The position numbers and the translations under genes were made by a program. From Halorubrum sp. Hd13 (GTDB lineage: Archaea > Halobacteriota > Halobacteria > Halobacteriales > Haloferacaceae), in assembly GCF_002252755.1 (NCBI RefSeq), contig NZ_NHOY01000055.1:1-35572 (forward strand): a stretch of 35,572 bases of DNA. Reading direction: 5' to 3'. Positions 9,985 to 11,475 of this stretch are shown one piece after another (position 1 is the stretch's first letter; each line of letters opens with the position of its first letter). The notes under the pieces are model-generated. The model did no database searches and was not told the origin of the DNA. It saw only the letters and a program-made list of their open reading frames with translations.

Positions 9985-11307
9985 ATGCGAGTCACCGTCG
10001 TCGGCAGCGGTTACGTCGGTACCACCCTCGCGGCCTGCCTTGCAGACGCGGGTCACGACGTCACGGCGATCGATATCGACCCGGACGTCGTCGACGCCCT
10101 GAACGACGGCCGCGCGGCGATCCACGAACCGGGACTCGACGACCTCCTGGCCGAGCACGCGGGCGACCGGCTCCGGGCGACGACCGAGTACGACGGCGTC
10201 CCCGACGCCGACGTGACGTTCCTCGCGATCGGTACCCCCTCACGCGAGGACGGTAGCATCGACCTCGGTCCCCTCACCGCGGCCGCGGGGATGACCGGCG
10301 AGGCGCTGGCGGACGTAGGAGGAGACTCCGCCGCGGCGGACGACCCCGAGGACCGCCACCTCGTCGTCGTCAAGAGCACGATCACGCCGCCGGGCGTCCG
10401 CGAGGTCCGCGAGGCGCTCGTGGCGGGCGCCGGCGACGCGGCCGACCGCGTCGAGCTCGCGACCAACCCCGAGTTCCTCCGCGAGGGGTCCGCGGTCGAC
10501 GACTTCCAACACCCGGACAAGCTGGTCTTCGGCGCCGACTCCGACTGGGCGACCGACCGGCTGGAGGCCCTCTACGAGCCCCTGCTCGACGCGATCGACG
10601 GCGACGTGCCGGTGATCCGGACCGACCCCGAGACCGCCGTGATGATCAAGTACGCCAACAACGCCTTTTTGGCGTCGAAAATCTCGCTGGCGAACGACCT
10701 GGGGAACGTCTGCAAGCGGTTCGGGATCGACGCCTACGAGGTGATGGACGCGGTCGGGCTCGACGACCGCATCGGGGCGCGGTTCCTGCGCTCGGGGGTG
10801 GGCTGGGGCGGAAGTTGTTTTCCCAAAGATGTTGATGCAATTAGGGCAGCAGCCCGCGAGGCCGGCTACGAGCCGCCGATGCTCGACGCCGCGGTCGCGG
10901 TGAACGACGGCCAGCCGGAGCGCATGCTCGAACTGCTGGACTCGCACGTCGACGTCGCGGGCGAGCGCGTCGCCGTGCTCGGACTCGCATTTAAACCGGG
11001 CACCGACGACACCCGGAACTCCCGGGCGATCCCGATCGTCGAGGGGCTGCGGGCGCGCGGCGCCGACGTCGTCGGCTACGACCCGGTCGCGACCGACGCC
11101 ATGCGCGAGCGCTTCCCCGACCTCGCGTACGCCGACTCCGCGGCCGCCGCGCTGGAGGGGGCGAGCGCCGCGCTCGTCGTCACCGACTGGGACGAGTTCG
11201 CGGCGCTCGACGACGCCTTCGACGCCATGGCCGAGCCCGTCGTGATCGACGGGCGGCGGATAATCGAGCGGCGCGACGGCCTGACGTACGAGGGGCTCAC
11301 CTGGTAG
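9985..11307 (+). CDS. aglM: UDP-glucose/UDP-sugar 6-dehydrogenase (AglM-type)
   Basis: 440 aa, three-domain UDP-Glc/GDP-Man dehydrogenase. N-terminal Rossmann motif VGSGYVG (residues 6-12), central dimer domain with [15 protein letters not shown], active-site GGSCFPKD with nucleophile Cys278, and C-terminal [11 protein letters not shown] substrate-binding block. It oxidises UDP-glucose (or a related UDP-hexose) to the uronic acid with two NAD+. In haloarchaea AglM feeds UDP-glucuronic acid to S-layer N-glycosylation; that specific role is inferred. Start ATG 9985 matches the family N-terminus. Oddity: codons 276-289 (10810-10851), spanning the active-site motif, are about 43% GC with AGT TGT TTT CCC AAA and GTT, ATT, AGG, unlike the rest of the gene; see findings. 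Confidence 0.92.
10810..10851 (+). other. Low-GC, rare-codon patch at the active site of the UDP-sugar dehydrogenase
   Basis: Forty-two bases in frame with ~43% GC (18 of 42) inside a gene of roughly 70% GC. Codons AGT, TGT, TTT, AAA, GAT, GTT, GCA, ATT and AGG cluster here and are nearly absent elsewhere in the gene. Reading frame and protein motif are intact. Confidence 0.85.
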
Positions 11308-11440
11308 CGGCGGCGACTACCGCGTTCGATAACCCGAGGGACGCCGGTCGTCCGGACGTCGTTGCGCTCGGGACCGTCAGTCGCCACTGACATGTAATTC
11401 GATAAATAACTGTGTGACTAGAATATAAACGGTACTACAT

Positions 11441-11448
11441 TATTAATA
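11441..11448 (+). promoter_or_regulatory. TATA box of the methanethiol oxidase operon
   Basis: ATTATTAATAG about 31 bases upstream of ATG 11476 in an AT-rich intergenic stretch. A second TATA-like AATATAAAC at 11422-11430 could serve an alternative start. Confidence 0.45.
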
Positions 11449-11475
11449 GGGTAGGATTCGAACCGGCGATCTGGG

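Follow-up and report, generated by a model that had tools for sequence, protein, structure and literature searches.

Non-preferred synonymous codons at an empty intein homing site in a haloarchaeal UDP-glucose 6-dehydrogenase gene, and similar codon islands at intein sites of other genes

The UDP-glucose 6-dehydrogenase (UDP-GlcDH) gene of Halorubrum sp. Hd13 carries, at its active-site cysteine, a short run of codons that has been changed to non-preferred, mostly A/T-ending synonyms, leaving the active-site protein sequence unaltered. Relatives hold an endonuclease-bearing intein at the identical point, so that the site is an empty intein homing site. We regard the run as a recoded, intein-free target that was probably shaped, if by no wide margin of confidence, by homing-endonuclease pressure, most likely through selection for empty alleles that the enzyme cuts poorly. 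The same tendency is seen more widely: synonymous codons at intein homing sites are non-preferred and unusually diverse, forming islands within their genes. The link between codon islands and inteins is strong; that recoded alleles would resist the endonuclease is a reading of the sequences. The window is the whole stretch of DNA analysed, 35,572 nucleotides long, and its relevant features are as follows.

Positions 9985 to 11307, forward strand: UDP-glucose 6-dehydrogenase gene (AglM-like), an ORF of 440 codons plus stop with the Pfam UDPG_MGDP_dh_N, central and C domains
Positions 10810 to 10851, forward strand: AT-rich recoded patch, codons 276-289
Positions 10816 to 10851, forward strand: core recoded block, codons 278-289, an all-or-none unit between sister species
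Positions 10815 to 10816, forward strand: equivalent of the intein insertion point (between Ser277 and Cys278), empty here and occupied in relatives by inteins of 471-475 aa

The GGSCFPKD active-site motif, together with NAD-binding, central and UDP-binding domains, identifies the product as an AglM-like UDP-glucose 6-dehydrogenase. Codons 276-289 read GGA AGT TGT TTT CCC AAA GAT GTT GAT GCA ATT AGG GCA GCA, with a GC content of 0.429 against 0.714 for the whole gene, and 12 of these 14 codons end in A or T, compared with 25 of the 414 in the remainder. When codons were shuffled synonymously, keeping the protein and the codon set, none of 5000 shuffles had 12 A/T-ending codons in any 14-codon window, which confirms the original prediction of a low-GC recoded patch (~43% GC) at the active-site cysteine. 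The weaker odd codons that it listed near 10671 (TTT TTG) and 10988 (GCA TTT AAA) are present but far milder (F228, z 3.3; K337, z 6.1, over 113 alleles), and no intein was found at either position. Among 113 empty alleles (114 were kept after removal of ORFs <330 codons, with N or with identical cores, and 113 used), codons 277-290 form the most A/T-ending 14-codon window of the gene, and A/T-ending use is not raised directly upstream, at codons 266-273 and 275. A scan of 402 GC-rich ORFs from 80 related loci and the window also drew several of its most extreme 13-codon windows from the GGSCFPKD motif; a number of the other extreme windows look like mis-called starts or wrong frames. Elsewhere in the window, the intergenic stretch 11390-11452 between the dehydrogenase and the next gene, which by reading of its sequence encodes a selenium-binding-like protein, is AT-rich (GC about 0.29-0.31).

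When 52 genomes of the genus were searched with the protein, matches split near residues 277-294 appeared in long frames of 931-1122 residues. Eleven of these genomes (G001, G011, G013, G015, G024, G025, G030, G039, G043, G050 and G051) hold inteins of 471-475 residues between S277 and C278 (GGS/CFPKD, the slash marking the insertion), the one in G039 being visible only from its second residue because of a contig end. Both inteins examined (n=2) contain Intein_splicing and LAGLIDADG_3 domains, and within the class 19 of 391 genomes, from 7 of 86 genera, show the C-junction pattern of the intein. The window allele itself is a continuous 440-residue ORF without an intein. The suggestion that the patch sits on an intein site is thus borne out within the same genus and at the exact position; the opposite situation, recoding in all close relatives with an intein nowhere, was checked and does not hold. 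A separate search of 14 genomes with an intein query, run without a positive control for the query, gave 0 matches, which carry no weight on their own. In the parts covered, Soucy et al. 2014 (PMC4071816) list a UDP-glucose 6-dehydrogenase intein in Halobacteria and other taxa; this udp allele has the same host gene and presumably the same insertion site, but it holds the intein and the window allele does not, and those parts make no mention of recoded empty sites.

Codon islands are also found at intein sites of other genes. We scored 14-codon windows for A/T-ending codons beyond the expectation from amino acid and gene, in comparison genes picked for known inteins and in control genes not known to carry any; the comparison genes were represented by a subset of their alleles (30 loci per search plus 40 regions), leaving out those that were duplicated or covered under 27-30% of the reference. 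In each of the five intein genes (UDP-GlcDH, MCM, PolB, DP2 and ribonucleotide reductase, RNR), the highest-scoring window falls on an intein site or immediately next to one: at GTGK/SQM in MCM, at YGDTD/S and next at VIMN/SLYG in PolB, at 924-937 in DP2, ending at the site 937/938, and at 419-432 in RNR, where the site is 428. Insertion points were taken from alignment breaks, and the MCM 360 position is approximate because only one side is visible. The null consisted of all positions of the same gene >30 codons from any site, with overlapping windows; this within-gene test is safer than P values across alleles, which kinship makes non-independent. Eight of ten intein sites exceed every null position of their own gene: UDP-GlcDH 277 (0/324), MCM 333, 360 and 399 (0/518 each), PolB 603 and 653 (0/701 each), DP2 937 (0/1071) and RNR 428 (0/873). 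There is no island at PolB 516, which 321 of 701 null positions reach, or at RNR 241 (870 of 873). In the five control genes, where no intein was seen, null maxima are 0.041-0.100, compared with 0.107-0.416 at the positive sites; the null maximum of DP2 itself is 0.132. PolB in 25 alleles from a second family again gave 603 and 653 (excess 0.102 and 0.132; 0/701 each) and not 516. Site 653 was first spotted as an island and a gap in profile matches, and its insertion point was confirmed later. The PolB gene of Halorubrum sp. Hd13 has inteins at 516 and 603. As a side observation, G022:C1:148011-149128 and G038:C3:2268472-2269589 each have the RpoB domain (PF00562) divided between two frames, with the break at one and the same profile position (about 251-255), either as a natural split gene or through a shared frameshift.

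Synonymous diversity reaches the gene maximum at the sites of UDP-GlcDH (rank 1 of 425), PolB 653 (1 of 913) and RNR (1 of 1035), and ranks high at MCM (16 of 685), PolB 603 (17 of 913) and DP2 (21 of 1172). Leu and Arg are encoded by TTR and AGR about 6 to 12 times more often at the MCM, PolB and RNR sites than elsewhere; the factor is about two at the UDP-GlcDH site, and DP2 has hardly any enrichment (0.053 vs 0.044). Relative to the insertion point, the islands extend over codons -3 to +12 in UDP-GlcDH, -11 to +12 at PolB 653, -11 to +32 in MCM and -27 to +32 in DP2; those of DP2 and MCM, up to about 180 bp, exceed the endonuclease recognition length of 14-40 bp quoted in the covered parts of PMC3024317. 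Flanks >3 times the gene value occur in 18/38 empty alleles of UDP-GlcDH, 11/14 of MCM, 11/13 of DP2, 14/35 of RNR and 18/22 and 29/30 of PolB, with 'nd_short' rows left out of the flank comparison (30 DP2, 6 UDP-GlcDH and 2 MCM). Intein-bearing alleles also have raised flanks in MCM (0.39), PolB-b (0.44) and DP2 (0.24), and not in UDP-GlcDH.

In UDP-GlcDH the recoding behaves as a block. In a tree of the gene built without codons 269-299, intein-bearing alleles nest among recoded empty ones, for example L031i with L001-L003, and L035i and L036i with L019-L021. Five sister pairs of clade A differ at 7-9 of 12 synonymous patch codons, compared with about 15% in the remaining gene, and their codons 240-276 and 291-330 differ at the background level; in a clade B pair, 6 of 8 patch codons are different. 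The clade B block (L019, L020 and L021; codons 284-289) carries amino-acid changes, unlike that of clade A. Divergence between AT-type alleles is 0.25 in the patch and 0.21 in the remainder, that between GC-type alleles of clade A is 0.10 and 0.18, and that between the two types is 0.70 and 0.21. The AT-type, defined by a patch fraction of at least 0.4 and >2.5 times the gene value, is found in 25 of the 122 haloarchaeal alleles that remained after removal of the L024 fragment and duplicates. These alleles form 21 maximal pure clades and have several different amino-acid sequences after CFPKD. By the Fitch count the type changes 19 times, compared with 23.0 times in shuffles (minimum 18); the AT-type thus shows hardly any clustering on the tree and changes state frequently. 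Its independent origins are fewer than 21, a number that the clade count does not fix exactly. Eleven loci of Natrinema, Natribaculum, Natronococcus, Halostagnicola and Natronoglomus (L085, L086, L088, L090, L092, L093, L095, L098, L109, L112 and L134) have a patch fraction of at most about 1.35 times that of the gene. A pattern tally of 14/391 excluded Trp at position 274 and gives no count of empty alleles; ten of its 14 loci joined the empty-allele set, the others being too short or duplicates. The G044 assembly breaks at the patch (L024 from 2325 to its end; G044:C25:6297-6809), with two contigs overlapping by about 18 residues, which would fit a block that is repeated or that varies within the sample.

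Homing-endonuclease pressure need not act through resistance. Error-prone repair of endonuclease breaks, with purifying selection leaving a synonymous hyper-divergence that drifts to A/T, would involve no selection for resistance, and it fits the peaks of synonymous diversity at the sites, the islands wider than a recognition site and the elevation of both A and T on either side. The change in UDP-GlcDH, however, is a sharp block of ~12 codons, all-or-none in sister species, rather than a graded decay, and third positions lack the strand asymmetry expected from damage to resected single strands. Both A and T are raised on both sides of the sites, in 2-fold and 4-fold codons, and strand-specific deamination of resected DNA was therefore rejected. 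Error-prone repair could make similar islands in the other genes and suits the block replacement in UDP-GlcDH less well; we consider it unlikely, yet worth keeping in mind.

The original prediction had proposed that the patch is a scar: flanking DNA of an AT-rich intein donor would have been co-converted, and the intein then precisely lost. The patch does lie on an intein site, and the inteins (0.54-0.61 GC) are less GC-rich than the gene, but among the alleles read the AT-rich block is confined to those without an intein, some of them sisters of intein-bearing alleles, and 0/18 distinct intein-bearing C-flanks are AT-rich. These C-flanks are GC-rich, with TGT in 0/18, TTT in 2/18 and a top A/T-ending fraction of 0.31, compared with TGT at codon 278 in 67, TTT in 40 and an A/T-ending fraction >0.4 in 31 of the 114 empty alleles. 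Ignoring kinship, the difference gives a Fisher P of 7e-7 for TGT at codon 278 (0/18 vs 67/114) and a Mann-Whitney P of 0.017 for the A/T-ending fraction. The contrast is limited to the C side, since AGT on the N side is common to intein-bearing and recoded alleles. Co-conversion from such donors would thus deliver a GC-rich flank, not an AT-rich one. In addition, the tract is just about 36-42 bp long and nearly one-sided, and the amino acids after CFPKD differ among the blocks of different lineages. The GC-rich type of clade A is the less diverse in the patch, which would rather point to GC-rich flanks as the trace of intein passage; this low diversity hints that the clade A empty alleles with a GC-rich block and no patch (L008, L010 and L011), not the AT-rich alleles, may be what intein passage and loss left behind. 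The scar is therefore not supported, and we hold this history to be improbable.

Causation in reverse, with inteins favouring AT-rich sites, or an unrelated function of AT-rich active-site codons in pausing, mRNA structure or an internal signal, appears to us no less improbable. Intein sites are conserved functional motifs, and K337 and I349 of the dehydrogenase are raised as well; against this, intein-bearing alleles of the dehydrogenase are of the GC-rich type, most conserved windows without inteins have no excess, the AtpA P-loop is not raised (-0.017) and the controls RpoB, RpoA', AtpB and RNR2 are flat. The A/T-ending excess is not predicted by conservation (rho 0.05, -0.37 and -0.10), and an effect of conserved motifs was rejected for want of any positive correlation worth naming.

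Searches for a donor or an integration site gave little. Nine of 52 genomes contain the haplotype pattern, as a single copy that always lies in the dehydrogenase gene, which makes an att site improbable. A viral donor was rejected since a loose pattern gave 68 viral-contig matches of which the best was 33/42 identical and none lay in DNA of at least 60% GC; the intein matched phage sequences weakly, below 30% identity among the three matches listed. A plasmid donor was set aside as well, the haloarchaeal plasmid matches listed (15 of 61 records) being ordinary homologues at 64-73% identity; one record outside that listing has an 80-90% match. G011, G031 and G035 contain broken 3' fragments of UDP-GlcDH that start at residues 290-294, immediately after the recoded block (L409 7608, reverse strand; L410 5016, forward; L412 4390, forward). 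The ORFs tested beside them include sugar-pathway genes and a TraG-like ATPase; Pfam found no integrase or LAGLIDADG family in these few ORFs, and a yeast WHO-like element was rejected as no endonuclease domain was present in them. The least probable account is that a short tract was imported from a virus, a plasmid or an AT-rich relative, or that the patch is the att site of an integrating element: the amino-acid changes within the clade B tract (VNALISSAREV in L019 vs VDALRAAAREQ in its intein-bearing sister) and the three 3' fragments speak for it, but the single occurrence per genome, the poor viral matches and the lack of an integrase in the few ORFs tested speak against it, and it leaves the islands in four other genes unexplained.

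A LAGLIDADG intein circulates in haloarchaeal UDP-glucose dehydrogenase genes, inserting between Ser277 and Cys278, and about 12 codons from the insertion point onward have been swapped for non-preferred synonyms. What the islands have in common is the endonuclease target. Under selection for poorly cut empty alleles, the reading we prefer, alleles that the endonuclease recognises poorly would stay empty, escape invasion and be retained, the silent changes presumably being cheap for the host. Since the genome prefers G/C-ending codons, departing from the common target sequence means A/T-ending codons. Published work suggests that a few silent changes are insufficient for resistance: the covered parts of PMC3024317 state that homing endonucleases easily tolerate single synonymous substitutions, and those of PMC10643990 that MCM endonucleases of Hfx. 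mediterranei recognise Hfx. volcanii sites with several, mostly synonymous, differences. In UDP-GlcDH, 8-10 silent changes would have to be enough. We also count against this explanation the islandless PolB 516 and RNR 241 sites, the over-wide DP2 and MCM islands, the raised flanks of intein-bearing alleles and the patchless empty alleles of clade A.

Escape from homing through a changed intein target has a parallel in the degenerate VDE target of a wild yeast, reportedly described by Gimble in 2001, although that case concerns one yeast gene as opposed to the class-wide synonymous pattern here. The WHO elements at FBA1 in Torulaspora (PMC7282813) are alike in that sequence differences in a conserved gene decide LAGLIDADG cutting; as the covered parts describe, allele-specific differences block the enzyme at yeast FBA1, and a jump in diversity at the cut site and genomic 3' gene fragments can be likened to the UDP-GlcDH case. 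However, WHO lies downstream and exchanges the entire 3' end, whereas in UDP-GlcDH ~12 codons are changed and the intein lies inside other alleles; unlike at WHO, no endonuclease gene lies near the UDP-GlcDH 3' fragments among the tested ORFs. The resistant MCM-d alleles of Haloferacales (PMC10643990, parts covered) are likewise empty haloarchaeal intein sites that stay empty through their sequence, but there Pro for Ser blocks splicing, not cutting, whereas the UDP-GlcDH changes are synonymous. A near precedent for synonymous change at intein sites comes from fungal RPB2, where, according to the covered parts of PMC1635734, the sequences surrounding two allelic inteins share less than 80% DNA identity, with almost all differences in third codon positions. 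Among the open-literature listings searched, no title or abstract opening described synonymous codon islands at intein sites; most subscription papers lay outside this scope, which makes it weak evidence of novelty.

Altogether, the results may reflect an arms race at silent sites between haloarchaea and inteins, in which empty alleles are kept as synonymous immunity alleles and codon islands mark past or present endonuclease targets and could predict undiscovered intein sites; we see the chances of this broader view as a little short of even. It is commonly assumed, and set out in a published model (PMC3229294, parts covered), that escape from a homing endonuclease costs the host, since the target encodes a conserved motif. 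If our explanation is true, changing many neighbouring codons silently would let the host escape the endonuclease at little cost, and codon islands would give a sequence-only marker of endonuclease pressure. Sister species naturally hold two targets that differ mainly by synonymous codons, which makes the escape idea testable in Haloferax.
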